This document shows, one piece after another, positions 2,469-26,666 of a stretch of DNA of 38,719 bases. Every line of letters begins with the position of its first letter. Within the stretch, counting starts at the first letter, position 1. The notes beneath the pieces were generated by a model. The model ran no database searches. It was not told the origin of the DNA and saw only the letters and a program-made list of their open reading frames with translations. A program made the translations under genes and the position numbers. The DNA is taken from assembly GCA_016177225.1 (NCBI GenBank), contig JACOVQ010000014.1:1-38719 (forward strand), given 5' to 3'. Origin of the DNA: Candidatus Zambryskiibacteriota bacterium. GTDB lineage: Bacteria; Patescibacteriota; Minisyncoccia; Phycocordibacterales; Zambryskibacteraceae.

Positions 2469-3869
2469 TTATTTATTTTTAGAGAATATAACTATGTAGT
2501 TGTCCATGAAAACGGCTTTCCAATCTTTGTCTTCGGCGCGTTCGGCAAGAAACTTCTGCCCCCACGGTGTGTAGTCGCGATGCGAGAATATTATGGTGTT
2601 GAATTCGTATTGCTCGTCTAATTTGCGCCAAGCTGACTCATCTTCTTGAGCTGGCACATAAATTTCTTCAAAAAACTTCTTTGTATAAGCCTCCGGCCGG
2701 TTATCGACAAAAACTTTTTCACTCGGATAAAGGCTATAAATCAGATAGCTTCCCACGTCGTAATTATTAAATATCGGGCTTTTGATATCGCGAGATGTGA
2801 TAAATACTCGAGCATTCAGAACATCTGGCGCTAACCCCCAACCAACGTTCCGAATGTCTTTCAATCCAAAAGACACGAGCAGAACAATGATTAATATGGA
2901 AGAGCCTAGGACTATGTCTCTGCCAATTTTTGAAAAGAATAATTGATACGCGTAAGATAGGAAAACTAGCGCAAAGAGTCCGAAAATTGGGAAATGCCTG
3001 ATACCGAGATACGCCATGCTTAAAGTGGCGAGGGTCGGCAATAAAATTGATATTGGAGGTTTTGTGCATTTGTATAGCAATAGTCCAAGTGAGATTAGCG
3101 TAGCGCCGGCAATTATTTTAAAAAGCAGAAAATGCTCGCCGGCCGTAAAGCCGATATTTTCGAGAAAACGTACGGACTGATTCTCCACTATTCTATAGCC
3201 ATAATCTTTAAAAATGAGAAAAGGGTAAAGAAGAATCTTGTAACCGAATGGATTAATCAGGGCCAGAATGGCTGAAACAATAGTAATTTTATAGAATTTT
3301 TTGAAATCTTCGAGACAAAAACTGCCCAAAATCATAAAGCCAAAAATAAAACCGATATGCAGATTGACCCAAAGCATCATTAGTATAGGTAACGCCCAGA
3401 TATATTTTCTGAAAAATAAAATGTTTAAAAACACTCCGCTTAAAAGAAGACTGAATACTTCCGGCCGAACTTCGGCCCTAGAGACAAGAATGGGAGCAAG
3501 GACAATTGTAAAAAATGATGCAATATAAAAGCTAGAAAGTTTTCTTGCTACATTCCAAAAAAGAAATATGGCTCCCAAACTTCCCAAAACATAAAATACC
3601 GAAAGACCAGTAAAGCCGAAAAGCTTATGGATAAAATAAAAAATCACACCGCTTGCCCAATGGTGATTGACGAAAGGCGCATCCGGCATGGTGTAAGAGT
3701 AGAAATTAGTGTGAAGCAGAGCGAGTTTTGCGGCAAGCGGCGCCTCCACCAAAATTTTGCCGTTAGTAATATGCCGGCCAATATCAGCGGTTACCAAGTC
3801 AATCTTTTGTGAGAGAAAAATTCCGCACCATAGGATGATAAAAATAATGGTAAGCGCTTTAAGCCGCAT
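2469..3869 (-). CDS. Polytopic membrane protein, GT-C glycosyltransferase-like
   Basis: Many hydrophobic segments with a soluble C-terminus; start set at MRLKALTI because the longer ORF runs into a tRNA. Confidence 0.55.
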   Translation of the reverse strand: MRLKALTIIFIILWCGIFLSQKIDLVTADIGRHITNGKILVEAPLAAKLALLHTNFYSYTMPDAPFVNHHWASGVIFYFIHKLFGFTGLSVFYVLGSLGAIFLFWNVARKLSSFYIASFFTIVLAPILVSRAEVRPEVFSLLLSGVFLNILFFRKYIWALPILMMLWVNLHIGFIFGFMILGSFCLEDFKKFYKITIVSAILALINPFGYKILLYPFLIFKDYGYRIVENQSVRFLENIGFTAGEHFLLFKIIAGATLISLGLLLYKCTKPPISILLPTLATLSMAYLGIRHFPIFGLFALVFLSYAYQLFFSKIGRDIVLGSSILIIVLLVSFGLKDIRNVGWGLAPDVLNARVFITSRDIKSPIFNNYDVGSYLIYSLYPSEKVFVDNRPEAYTKKFFEEIYVPAQEDESAWRKLDEQYEFNTIIFSHRDYTPWGQKFLAERAEDKDWKAVFMDNYIVIFSKNK

Positions 3870-3872
3870 GGA

Positions 3873-3944
3873 GCCAAGACGGAGGATCGAACTCCGGACC
3901 TCATCCTTACCATGGATGTGCTCTGCCAACTGAGCTATCTTGGC
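3873..3944 (-). tRNA. tRNA-Thr(GGT)
   Basis: GCCAAGA...TCTTGGC acceptor, anticodon loop ATGGTAA, T-loop TTCGATC. Confidence 0.93.
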
Positions 3945-4248
3945 ACGAGCTTAATCTTATAAAAATAAAGAGGTTTTACAAGTTTAATATGGCAAGGCAA
4001 GACCTTTGAAAATTTCCGCGACCTCCACTCGGAGCCAAGCTCCTCCGTGCTTCAAGTCCCAACATTACTCATGCTGAAACATAAGAAAAAGCGGAACCTA
4101 ACCCGCTCTTTCTTAGCTTTGCGCGACCTAGTGAACAACGTAAGAACCAGTCTCAAGAATTATGACGGCCTTATATACATTCCGGACCTTAAATTGTACA
4201 TGGCGTTTGAGGTAAAACAGCCTATCAAGAATAAGGAGATGGGTGGGT

Positions 4249-5235
4249 CTACCAATACATCTCGTCCTCGCCACGCTTTAAAAGCGTCTTGAATATTTTA
4301 CTACCCAATTTTGGTTCGACAGAGTGGATAAAAGCAGCGAAACCTTCAAGTCCCCACCCACCATAAGCTACCTGTGAAAATCTGCTTGGGTAAGTATTTT
4401 TGTCTATGGCTCGTTTTATTGCCTTGGCCCAGTGGTCCATAAACCCATATTTCTTAATGTAATAAAGCTCTAATCGTAATCTTCTCTTAAATTTCTTGGA
4501 CAATCTCGGACGTTTATCTACAACCGATAGTCCTGTCACATACTGAGGGCCACCTCGGCGATAAATACGGTACTTGTTTTCATTAATTTCAAAACCATAT
4601 TTAATAAGGATATTCTTAATTTCCTCTTTTGAGGGGATTTCTTTATTTGAGGATAAGGTTATATCGTCAGCATATCTTGTATAGATTAGTCCATGCTCAT
4701 TAGCTAGATTTTTAAAGTCTTCATCTAAATCAAGACAAGCTATGTTAGATAGCACAGGACTTGTGGCAAAACCAGCAGCAAGCACCCCATCCACAGTTAC
4801 TAATTCAGTAAGTTTTCCTGCAATTTTATCTTGAAAGCCAACTTTAATGAATATTCCATGCACTTCTTTAAAAGTTATTGATTCAAAGAAATGCTTAATA
4901 TCTATGTTAGTCACACTTTTCTTTTGGGTATGCTGTTGAGCGTTTGTAATTATTGATCTCCTCTTCACAAATCCATGAACAGAATCTGGTATCCGATGTG
5001 AATACCACTCGTACAGAAATGCCGATAGTGTTCTTAGAAAAATTCTATATGGATCAGACTTGGTGAAAACTATTTTCCTGTATTCACCACTTCTGTTCTT
5101 AAGCATCAATACTCTTGCAACTAATTCATCATGATTATCTATAAAGCCCTGCAGCATCTCTTCAGATACGTCAAAAAGAGAAGCTAATTCAATGAGAGTC
5201 TTTATTCTTTCAATATTAATTCCTACTGGGTGCAT
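4249..5235 (-). CDS. Retron-type reverse transcriptase
   Basis: NAQQH (retron NAxxH), AGFATSPVLSNIACLDLD, YTRYADDITLS, QYVTGLSV (retron VTGL). Confidence 0.9.
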   Translation of the reverse strand: MHPVGINIERIKTLIELASLFDVSEEMLQGFIDNHDELVARVLMLKNRSGEYRKIVFTKSDPYRIFLRTLSAFLYEWYSHRIPDSVHGFVKRRSIITNAQQHTQKKSVTNIDIKHFFESITFKEVHGIFIKVGFQDKIAGKLTELVTVDGVLAAGFATSPVLSNIACLDLDEDFKNLANEHGLIYTRYADDITLSSNKEIPSKEEIKNILIKYGFEINENKYRIYRRGGPQYVTGLSVVDKRPRLSKKFKRRLRLELYYIKKYGFMDHWAKAIKRAIDKNTYPSRFSQVAYGGWGLEGFAAFIHSVEPKLGSKIFKTLLKRGEDEMYW

Positions 5236-5252
5236 GGTGACGTATATAATGC

Positions 5253-5334
5253 GAAACCCCCAGCTAGGAAAAACAAGAAGATTCGTAACTACAGGCGCGA
5301 ACTCACGCCTTCGTATTGTTTAGCCGGGGGTTTC
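5253..5334 (-). ncRNA. Candidate retron ncRNA (msr/msd-like foldback) upstream of the RT
   Basis: Minus strand GAAACCCCCGGCTA...TAGCTGGGGGTTTC: 14-bp stem with one G-U pair, enclosing 54 nt with inner hairpin AGGCGTGAGTTCGCGCCT; sits between the DUF3800-like stop and the RT start. Confidence 0.65.
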
Positions 5335-5346
5335 TCCAGTATTCTA

Positions 5347-6039
5347 TCATTTTTGACCCAGAAAATTTACAATGTCTTCTCCGCGTTCATACCTGAACTT
5401 TTTACCTTTTTCAGACATTAAAATAAGGCCAACCTTATTGCCTATTAGCTTGAGAGAATCAGCAGACCATGAATTCCCTTGCATGCAGTGGTTTACAAAT
5501 CCCAGGAAATAATCCGGTAAGAAAGTTAGTGGTTCCTCCTCCTTGGTCACAACTTGAATTTCCATATCTCTGCAGAGGGGTATAGTTTCTAGAATTTTCG
5601 TAAAAAAATTCCTATCTAAATTTGATTTGTCTGTTAGGTTTTCAAATTTAACTAAATATTCTATATCAGATCCATATCTTTTAGAGAATTTCATCTTCAA
5701 CGGTTTTAGTAGCTCTGGCAATAAGGTCTGGTAAACAAATGTATCTTTCTCTTGTTTTGTCGAAAAAATAGCCTTTTTATTTATAGCTAGATAGGTGGAT
5801 ATGGGCATCTTGTATATCCATGACGACAAACTTTGCCGTGCTCCAATACTATCTTCGTTATAATGGAAAGTTTTAGTTTGAGCGCGGTAAACATTAATTG
5901 CAGGATCTATTGCTATCTGGCGCATCTGATCGTTAAGCAGAGAGATGTTCTCCTCTCCATGAACACATACAATGCATACAGAACAACAGTCTTTGATATA
6001 GCATTCATCAACCAGCATCAAAACCTTCTCCTTTTTCAT
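5347..6039 (-). CDS. DUF3800-like (RNase H-fold-like) protein, putative retron effector
   Basis: N-terminal MLVDECYI and C-terminal FLPDYFLGFVNHCM resemble the DUF3800 acidic motifs; same strand, directly upstream of the foldback and RT. Confidence 0.6.
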   Translation of the reverse strand: MKKEKVLMLVDECYIKDCCSVCIVCVHGEENISLLNDQMRQIAIDPAINVYRAQTKTFHYNEDSIGARQSLSSWIYKMPISTYLAINKKAIFSTKQEKDTFVYQTLLPELLKPLKMKFSKRYGSDIEYLVKFENLTDKSNLDRNFFTKILETIPLCRDMEIQVVTKEEEPLTFLPDYFLGFVNHCMQGNSWSADSLKLIGNKVGLILMSEKGKKFRYERGEDIVNFLGQK

Positions 6040-6053
6040 TTCTATTTTTAACT

Positions 6054-6200
6054 TTAATAAACTAAGTAACCTTTTAGCTTATCAACATAAGGCTGCTTCT
6101 TTTCTGTGGTCGACCAATAGGTGTTCTGGTCATTAAGGTAATAGTTATCTCTTTCATAGCGCGACAAAATATTGAGGTATTCTGTCTGGTATATTTTCAT
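6054..6200 (-). CDS. 48-aa small ORF, coupled to the upstream nucleotidyltransferase
   Basis: MKIYQTEYLNILSRYERDNYYLNDQNTYWSTTEKKQPYVDKLKGYLVY*; ATGA overlap with the upstream stop; below the ORF-track cutoff. Confidence 0.55.
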   Translation of the reverse strand: MKIYQTEYLNILSRYERDNYYLNDQNTYWSTTEKKQPYVDKLKGYLVY

Positions 6201-6649
6201 ATTATTTTCTCTATCGCTTCAATTTTAGTTTTAGTGCTAGTTAGTTTTTTCTGCTGACTCTCTTGATTTCTTTTATATACTAGCAAATAATCTTTTAGAG
6301 CTAATTCCTTGAATTTTACTCCATCAATTTCTGTAATCTTTAGCTTTTCTATGTCAATCTCCAACTTAATCAAGTCACTTTCTGGCTCAAACCCAACAGA
6401 GCCTTCCCCTTTTGTAAATTCGTGAGGATACGAAGCATCTTGTTTATAATTAACTTCGGCTAAAATTCTCATTAATTCTTCAAGATTATTAATTAAAATT
6501 TTGTTTGGAATGATAATATCAATATCATTTATCTTGTCTAATTGACCAGTAATTCTGTATAGACCGAGGGAACCGTATAACACAGGAACTATTCCGTGTT
6601 TATTAAGTGCTTTCGCTATCTCTAGAAAACTCTGAAATTTCTTATCCAT
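6197..6649 (-). CDS. Nucleotidyltransferase-like protein
   Basis: LYGSLGLYRITGQLDKINDIDIIIPN resembles the NTase GS...DxD core. Confidence 0.65.
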   Translation of the reverse strand: MDKKFQSFLEIAKALNKHGIVPVLYGSLGLYRITGQLDKINDIDIIIPNKILINNLEELMRILAEVNYKQDASYPHEFTKGEGSVGFEPESDLIKLEIDIEKLKITEIDGVKFKELALKDYLLVYKRNQESQQKKLTSTKTKIEAIEKII

Positions 6650-6722
6650 AATAAAAAGTATACCAAGTTAGAACTGAATAATCCTTATGATGTAATGACT
6701 TAATAAGAAAAACTTGCTTTGC

Positions 6723-6795
6723 GCGAGTGATGGGACTTGAACCCACGGCCTCTTCCGTGACAGGGAAGCGCTCTAACCAGCTGAGCTACACCCGC
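6723..6795 (-). tRNA. tRNA-Asp(GTC)
   Basis: GCGGGTG...CACTCGC acceptor, anticodon loop CTGTCAC, T-loop TTCAAGT. Confidence 0.92.
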
Positions 6796-6862
6796 ATTGC
6801 GTTACAAATTAACAGATTTTTTAGTCTTAATCAATTTGCTTGCACTGAACTCGTTGAAGTGT

Positions 6863-6934
6863 GCCGGGGGTGGGGATCGAACCCACGACCTGTGGTTTAT
6901 GATTCCACTGCTCTACCAACTAAGCTACCCCGAC
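6863..6934 (-). tRNA. tRNA-Met(CAT), elongator type
   Basis: GTCGGGG...CCCCGGC acceptor, anticodon loop ATCATAA, T-loop TTCGATC. Confidence 0.85.
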
Positions 6935-7617
6935 ATTGTTTCTCTTTTTAGAGATTCTACCAATCCTAACATTTTATACTTCAAGTGTTTACCCCTGCGT
7001 ACAAAGAGCCTACATACTCCAAAATAAGTATCATAATTGTCATAGATTTTCTTTATTTGAGTTTTGACAAAATAAGGTTTTCTTATTTGAGAATTATCCA
7101 AATTTAACAATTTTTTCCAAAAAATCAATACTTTATCAATTCTTTTCCTATGAATTTCATTTATTTGGATTCCACAAACCAAATCTTCTTGAGGCACATC
7201 CATAACTGATATTAGAAAATTTTTCATAAATAAAACCATCTGAGGGTCAGAATTAACAAATACAAATGTACTCGTAGACTCGGATTTTGAACCTTCACAC
7301 CAATACAGCGCTGAAGCAACCAAAGACATGTCTCTTTTTGAAACTTCTCTAATCGTCTTTCTTGCCCATTCATTTGCGGATTCAATTATTTCTAACTTTT
7401 TTCTTTTGTTTGCCTCTGCTCCCATTCTCTGACCTGTAGTAACTGACACGCCTTTATTTTTTCTAAGTTTCTCAAACTGAGATGAAGTTAAAATAATATC
7501 TCTACACCAGAGACTTATAGTGCTTTTAGAAGCCTCTAATTGTCTTGAAATTACTACTATTGACTCTCCGCCCTCTCTCATTTTGCGAGCCTGTATCCTC
7601 AAATCGTATTTAGCCAT
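6925..7617 (-). CDS. HTH protein with LAGLIDADG-like C-terminal region
   Basis: HTH-like ARKMREGGESIVVISRQLEASKSTISLWCRDI; ALYWCEGSKSES..FVNSDPQMVLFMKNFL...RKPYFVK..FGVCRLFVR; start set at MAKYDLR. Confidence 0.6.
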   Translation of the reverse strand: MAKYDLRIQARKMREGGESIVVISRQLEASKSTISLWCRDIILTSSQFEKLRKNKGVSVTTGQRMGAEANKRKKLEIIESANEWARKTIREVSKRDMSLVASALYWCEGSKSESTSTFVFVNSDPQMVLFMKNFLISVMDVPQEDLVCGIQINEIHRKRIDKVLIFWKKLLNLDNSQIRKPYFVKTQIKKIYDNYDTYFGVCRLFVRRGKHLKYKMLGLVESLKRETMSG

Positions 7618-7665
7618 ATACAACATTATCTCATAAGTTCTAATACAATGTGCAGATTTATGTGG

Positions 7666-7702
7666 ATAACAAAACAGCGCAATCATTGCGCTGTTTTGTT
7701 AT
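7666..7702. terminator. Perfect 18-bp inverted repeat with 1-nt centre, likely terminator 3' of tRNA-fMet
   Basis: ATAACAAAACAGCGCAAT-C-ATTGCGCTGTTTTGTTAT, starting 6 nt past the tRNA 3' end. Confidence 0.7.
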
Positions 7703-26231: not shown

Positions 26232-26666
26232 TTATAAGGCTTGTTTAATCGCTTTAATCGCCGTGTCTATTTCTTCTTGAGGAGAAGCGACTGTTCGAGG
26301 ACCGGGTCGATAAAGAAACTCTCGGGGCTCGTACTGATAGATACCAACATCTCCTTCTTTCCGCGGAACGATATGGAGGTGGAAATGCGATACCGATTGA
26401 CCACCTATCTTTTCCTCATTCCAAGCATAATTAAATCCTTCTGCTCCAAACGCTCTCTTTAATGCGGGTTTGAGTTTGCCTCTTAAATTCTCAATAGCAT
26501 TCTTTTCTTCCGAGGTGGTGTCTTCGTAATACTGGATATGCCTTTTTGGACACACAAGAATATGGCCGGAAACTATTGGAGTATTAGTTGGGAACGCAAA
26601 AGCGAGATCATTTTCGATGATCGTTCGATGCTTCACTTCTTCGTTTTTGCAAAATGGGCAGTCCAT
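26232..26666 (-). CDS. HIT family hydrolase
   Basis: SHFHLHIVPR histidine triad, MDCPFCKNEE; start set at MDCPFC. Confidence 0.92.
   Translation of the reverse strand: MDCPFCKNEEVKHRTIIENDLAFAFPTNTPIVSGHILVCPKRHIQYYEDTTSEEKNAIENLRGKLKPALKRAFGAEGFNYAWNEEKIGGQSVSHFHLHIVPRKEGDVGIYQYEPREFLYRPGPRTVASPQEEIDTAIKAIKQAL

Follow-up and report, generated by a model that had tools for sequence, protein, structure and literature searches.

Gene content and host of the locus

The window, by which we mean the whole 38.7-kb contig stretch that was analyzed, carries five features on the minus strand: a reverse transcriptase (RT) gene, a foldback and three further genes. An earlier note on this DNA had described an RT with a foldback and three same-strand genes upstream of it, and every coordinate and strand that it gave was confirmed. 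The features, together with the parts of the RNA, are as follows.

5235-4249, minus strand: RT, 328 aa, with NAQQH, YADD and VTGL; AAG replaces the QG motif
5334-5253, minus strand: putative ncRNA (msr-msd), 82 nt, with an a1/a2 outer stem (5321-5334 / 5253-5266)
5293-5310, minus strand: msr hairpin, AGGCGUG-AGUU-CGCGCCU, 7 bp plus a tetraloop kept in type VII
5267-5292, minus strand: stretch of ∼26 nt between the msr hairpin and a2, presumed RT template from sequence and fold comparison
6039-5347, minus strand: probable effector, a diverged DUF3800 protein of 230 aa with weak similarity to DUF3800_VII
6200-6054, minus strand: 48-aa open reading frame (ORF), a HIT-domain C-terminal tail and probable gene remnant
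6649-6197, minus strand: nucleotidyltransferase (NTase), pol-beta type and DUF2204-like (Pfam DUF2204, E 2.8e-5), probably an independent passenger

The 48-aa ORF overlaps the NTase gene by ATGA and is separated from the start of the DUF3800 gene by 14 nt, while a gap of 111 nt, which contains the foldback, lies between the DUF3800 and RT genes. The cassette is flanked by tRNA-Thr (3869-3944) and tRNA-Asp (6721-6795). The membrane protein of the left flank, used to look for synteny, had no match among 13 relatives, and a search for island borders through repeats returned only tRNA similarity and some short repeats that probably arose by chance.

Two other reading frames lie close by. At 6925-7686 (minus strand) the window encodes a 253-aa protein of no clear family with a possible N-terminal helix-turn-helix (HTH), whose end overlaps tRNA-Met (6861-6934); the gene lies next to the retron cassette and could be a small one of mobile or homing type. 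At 4047-4292 (plus strand), antisense to the 3' end of the RT gene, there is an 81-aa ORF that matches no family and whose first 65 residues look coding-like, possibly a gene fragment.

The host genome comprises 455 kb in 15 contigs and is an estimated 95.6% complete, and its relatives range from 400 to 1100 kb. Set against those relatives, its size and completeness probably fit a CPR (Patescibacteria) lineage, the host that the earlier note had proposed.

The RT belongs to a type VII retron clade

We searched for relatives of the window RT by a scan of GTDB genomes, which yielded three type VII-A2 loci, L016 (deltaproteobacterial MAG UBA6106), L017 (Flavobacterium gillisiae) and L018 (F. frigoris), as well as the RT-DUF3800 fusions L019, L021 and L022; searching the Flavobacterium order added L258, also a VII-A2 locus. 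The best PADLOC model for the window RT was RT_VII-A2 (1.9e-75), with the models for RT_III-A and the RT-DUF3800 fusion scoring lower, and the RT reached 252 bits with RT_VII-A2 compared to 453 to 464 for typical members. A tree of 60 RTs placed it inside the retron clades, within a type VII clade (bootstrap/SH-aLRT, 98/93) and as the sister of four VII-A2 RTs (97/92). A quick tree of 178 RTs recovered the window RT in the same type VII clade with weaker support (94). The NAxxH (NAQQH), YADD and VTG (VTGL) signature of retron RTs is kept in full. Profiles, motifs and tree thus agree with the earlier identification of this protein as a retron RT, and a group II intron, DGR or DRT identity was rejected on lower model scores and the tree. 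Separately, the RT_VII-A2 search of 14 control genomes produced a candidate match in Methanosarcina acetivorans.

The site of the QG motif reads LAAGFATSP in the window RT, with AAG in place of QG. The glutamine is retained in 161 of the 178 RTs in our set; it is replaced in six of ten type VII RTs (the window RT and all five fusions) compared to 11 of the 168 others.

A second locus of the same kind was absent from 380 sampled genomes of the phylum, and among 31 genomes of the family no second copy of the window RT appeared at the limit used, the search finding one other retron-like RT. RT relatives in viral contigs, plasmids and phages were distant RTs only, and sequence searches of the PDB returned no structure of a type VII retron or a DUF3800 protein.

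The foldback is a homologue of type VII ncRNAs

The arms of the foldback are 14 nt long and 93% complementary (an inverted repeat), and its fold has a z score of -3.7 against dinucleotide shuffles. The foldback exceeds chance expectation, because dinucleotide shuffling of the gap, repeated 200,000 times, produced the type VII hairpin motif in just 7 cases. We trained a covariance model on the four other VII-A2 ncRNAs, leaving the window out, and its top site in the window was 5333-5255 (minus strand; 19.0 bits), with a modest E value of 0.024 calculated over the window; the runner-up reached 11.7 bits (E 1.9). The 82-nt foldback that the earlier note had placed just 5' of the RT was therefore found independently by the model, and we locate it at 5334-5253. 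Over 57 sources (the window and 56 loci), the best nontraining match was upstream of the L019 RT-DUF3800 fusion (18.7 bits, E 0.47). A scan with Rfam matched no retron family, only tRNAs scoring above threshold.

The corresponding gaps in the other VII-A2 loci are similar in size, and each folds alike, with an outer stem, a 7-bp hairpin, a short stretch and a closing arm. The hairpin reads AGGCGUG-AGUU-CGCGCCU in the window compared to GGAUAUG-AGUU-CGUAUCC in Flavobacterium, such that five of the seven pairs carry pair-preserving changes and the two loop-closing pairs (UG..CG) are invariant. Type VII ncRNAs span 82 to 91 nt and have a near-fixed AGUU loop. The gap of the window thus holds an RNA with the a1/a2 stem and the msr hairpin of a structured retron ncRNA beside the RT, and on sequence and fold we identify the 82-nt foldback as a type VII ncRNA homologue.

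Between the msr hairpin and a2, comparison of sequences and folds with L016, L017 and L258 revealed no evident hairpin. Given this and the 82- to 91-nt length of the RNAs, our reading is that the template would measure ∼26 to 30 nt. Across the type VII RNAs that were compared, no unpaired G directly after a1 is conserved.

These features invite a different account, in which the locus works like a DRT system and the RNA, as a scaffold or as a template, lets the RT make short DNA, repeated or untemplated, that is itself a signal or a poison. A template region of ∼26 nt that lacks a hairpin, the missing conserved G after a1, and the frequent replacement of the QG glutamine among type VII RTs would all be in keeping with such a system. 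However, the RT bears the NAxxH and VTG signature motifs of retrons and falls among retron RTs in the tree, and the a1/a2-like stem and msr hairpin of the RNA resemble those of retrons. We therefore consider a DRT-like system unlikely and favor a retron.

The partner gene probably encodes a diverged DUF3800 protein

DUF3800 proteins have been described as nucleases of the RNase H fold with rearranged catalytic residues (PMC10910872, PMC12669027). The earlier note named DUF3800 as a catalogued partner of one retron type, and PADLOC does hold the models DUF3800_VII and RT_VII-A2; the partner genes of the RT relatives match DUF3800 and DUF3800_VII. For the 230-aa protein of the window, no DUF3800 match was obtained in Pfam, NCBIfam or PADLOC at the thresholds used.

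Further comparisons pointed weakly to the same family. The top two phmmer matches of this protein among 11,562 ORFs of the loci were the Flavobacterium DUF3800 genes (E 0.2 and 0.36), and hmmsearch gave an E value of 0.035. Aligned with hhalign to the four VII-A2 DUF3800 proteins, it scored 25.2 (probability 6.5), compared to maxima of 19.6 in 60 shuffles and 21.8 in 300 decoys, the latter leaving out one higher score that belonged to the DUF3800 protein of L018 itself. The window protein and its VII-A2 counterparts align collinearly, with the FH, FE, DY and LI-K-G-I positions retained, and by eye the N-terminal VDE pairs with IDE at a shift of one residue; in the window protein the motifs are DE11-12, FH58-59, FE132-133 and DY176-177. 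An AlphaFold model built from a five-sequence alignment was poor (pLDDT 39), and a PDB search using the effector alignment returned nothing meaningful. No close relatives of the window effector were found in plasmids or viral contigs, nor any of the L016 DUF3800 protein in plasmids or phages.

As a separate gene upstream of the RT, the 230-aa frame has the place and size expected of a DUF3800 partner, and its similarity, though weak and under family-model thresholds, is collinear. We conclude that it is probably a strongly diverged DUF3800 gene, for which homology is likely but unproven, and that the partner named in the earlier note stands at this strength.

The NTase and 48-aa ORF probably lie outside the retron

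Searching 197 genomes of the order with the 48-aa ORF, we obtained a match (E 4.5e-6) to the last part of an open frame of 163 codons whose product is a 154-aa HIT protein (HIT Pfam, 2.5e-13). Residues 8 to 46 of the ORF align to residues 114 to 152 of that protein (BLASTP, 1e-9), past its HxHxH motif, and the reverse search from the HIT protein returned to the 48-aa ORF in its own genome (2.1e-5). The C-terminal tail alone aligns, and the HxHxH catalytic motif does not occur in the ORF. From these alignments, the 48-aa ORF is probably a tail left behind by a disrupted HIT gene, lying outside the retron and making no working HIT enzyme. Elsewhere on the contig, 26349-26570 (minus strand) falls within another HIT-like open frame, distinct and longer (180 aa).

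The NTase keeps its G-S and D-x-D motifs intact and is predicted with confidence by AlphaFold2 (pLDDT 89.6), and its Foldseek matches are nucleotidyltransferases, MenT and MNT among them. An orthologue, 77% identical, occurs in a genome of the same genus (G1244, locus L265), where neither the RT nor DUF3800 was found, and farther copies of the family are solitary (L266 and L267). In G1244 the NTase gene belongs to a two-gene cassette (L265:8831-9771), in which it has an ATGA overlap of its own with a nucleoside 2-deoxyribosyltransferase-like gene (weak Pfam match, 0.009). Neither the NTase nor the 48-aa ORF was present in the examined stretches of four other VII-A2 loci. In the VII-A2 stretches examined, conservation alongside the RT holds for DUF3800 and fails for the other two genes.

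These results bear on the proposal, made in the earlier note, that the NTase and 48-aa ORF are extra components of the system. In such a four-gene variant the NTase, perhaps with the 48-aa product, would be functional, for example as an antitoxin or an accessory toxin that modifies a tRNA or the effector. The shared strand, the ATGA overlap and the 14-nt spacing to the DUF3800 start would suit that arrangement, as would an NTase with intact motifs and a confident fold, given that NTase toxins and antitoxins exist. Nevertheless, the close orthologue lives in a genome without the RT or DUF3800, the gene is not found beside the other VII-A2 loci examined, and the 48-aa ORF, a HIT tail, lacks the catalytic motif. 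We accordingly abandoned the proposal of extra components, regard a four-gene variant as very improbable, and take the NTase to be probably an independent passenger gene. We also rejected a toxin-antitoxin pair of NTase and 48-aa ORF, the latter being a HIT tail.

A broken neighbor also raises the prospect that the whole locus is a decaying, inactive remnant, with its QG glutamine lost and its effector diverged. The AAG motif, the adjoining HIT-tail ORF and the absence of a second RT copy from the 31 family genomes (at the limit used, and apart from the one other retron-like RT) agree with decay. Yet the RT and DUF3800 genes have open, full-length frames, the YADD and the acidic residues of DUF3800 are kept, the ncRNA stem is well formed, and active-looking relatives lack the glutamine too. 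We think it quite unlikely that the locus is a remnant, if less so than the four-gene variant.

A probable tripartite type VII-A2 retron and its proposed mechanism

The RT is sister to VII-A2, the RNA is a homologue of type VII ncRNAs, the partner is probably DUF3800, and the extra components are unsupported; the locus therefore reads as a deep-branching type VII-A2 retron. We consider it likely that this is a tripartite system made of the RT, the 82-nt RNA and a probable DUF3800 nuclease, with the NTase and HIT-tail ORF outside the machine. By sequence, its lineage is near the VII-A2 retrons of Flavobacterium and the deltaproteobacterial MAG, yet deeply diverged from them.

The retron literature that we searched, which did not include the main classification paper, gave no account of how type VII retrons work. 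Our comparison rests on gene content and order, on RT and ncRNA homology and on probable effector homology, and the later steps below are taken from retrons in general. By that analogy, the conserved AGUU hairpin would be where the RT binds the 82-nt RNA; the enzyme would prime at a guanosine close to the point where the a1 stem ends, and copy the short stretch before a2 into single-stranded DNA of ∼30 nt or less. The complex of RT, RNA and DNA would hold the DUF3800 nuclease in check until a phage disturbed it, whereupon the freed nuclease would stop or kill the infected cell. The NTase and HIT-tail ORF would stand upstream by happenstance, probably on the same transcript.

Beyond this locus, we tentatively suggest, at somewhat less than even odds, that type VII retrons form a class with a minimal ncRNA of 82 to 91 nt and no msd hairpin, with RTs that often lack the near-universal glutamine of the QG motif, in which a shorter RT-DNA or a different product controls the DUF3800 nuclease. 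If true, the RT-DNA of type VII would be much shorter than in other retrons, or a product of another kind. So compact an ncRNA with a near-fixed AGUU loop raises the question of which DNA, if any, is made from so short a template, and together with the missing QG glutamine it is a point for specialists. The locus would also widen the host range of type VII retrons to include a bacterium with a minimal genome, probably of the CPR, and add a third branch for comparing effectors and ncRNAs, with two false leads, the NTase and the 48-aa ORF, cleared away.

Comparison with known retrons

Retron-Eco1 (Ec86) has an RT homologous to that of the window (1.7e-25), whereas its effector, like those of the other solved retrons, is different. 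Retron-Eco1 and the other solved retrons have longer ncRNAs with a hairpin in the msd. CPR-related genomes encode further retron RTs associated with protease-like domains, as RT-protease fusions in L003 and L004 and as an RT with a protease-like gene beside it in L029; these are type XI-like.

Type VII-A1 systems, the RT-DUF3800 fusions (L019, L021, L022, L011 and L096), share with the window the type VII clade, a DUF3800 effector, replacement of the QG glutamine and, upstream of L019, a related ncRNA hairpin. They differ in that their effector is fused to the C terminus of the RT, whereas that of the window is a separate upstream gene. In L096 (IMGVR_UViG_3300044656_000401, 150-1718), a VII-A1-like fusion with LAPGINSSP at the QG site, the gene sits on a viral contig beside genes of phage structural type.

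The closest likeness is to type VII-A2. The order of DUF3800, short gap and RT is common to L016, L017, L018 and L258, and the window shares with L016, L017 and L018 this order, the ncRNA plan and the hairpin loop. It departs from those three in its sequence identity, which is 36 to 37% for the RT and 16 to 19% for the effector, and from VII-A2 in having AAG rather than QG, in the shorter C terminus of an effector that the family models miss at the thresholds used, and in its host, a CPR-like bacterium with a small genome.
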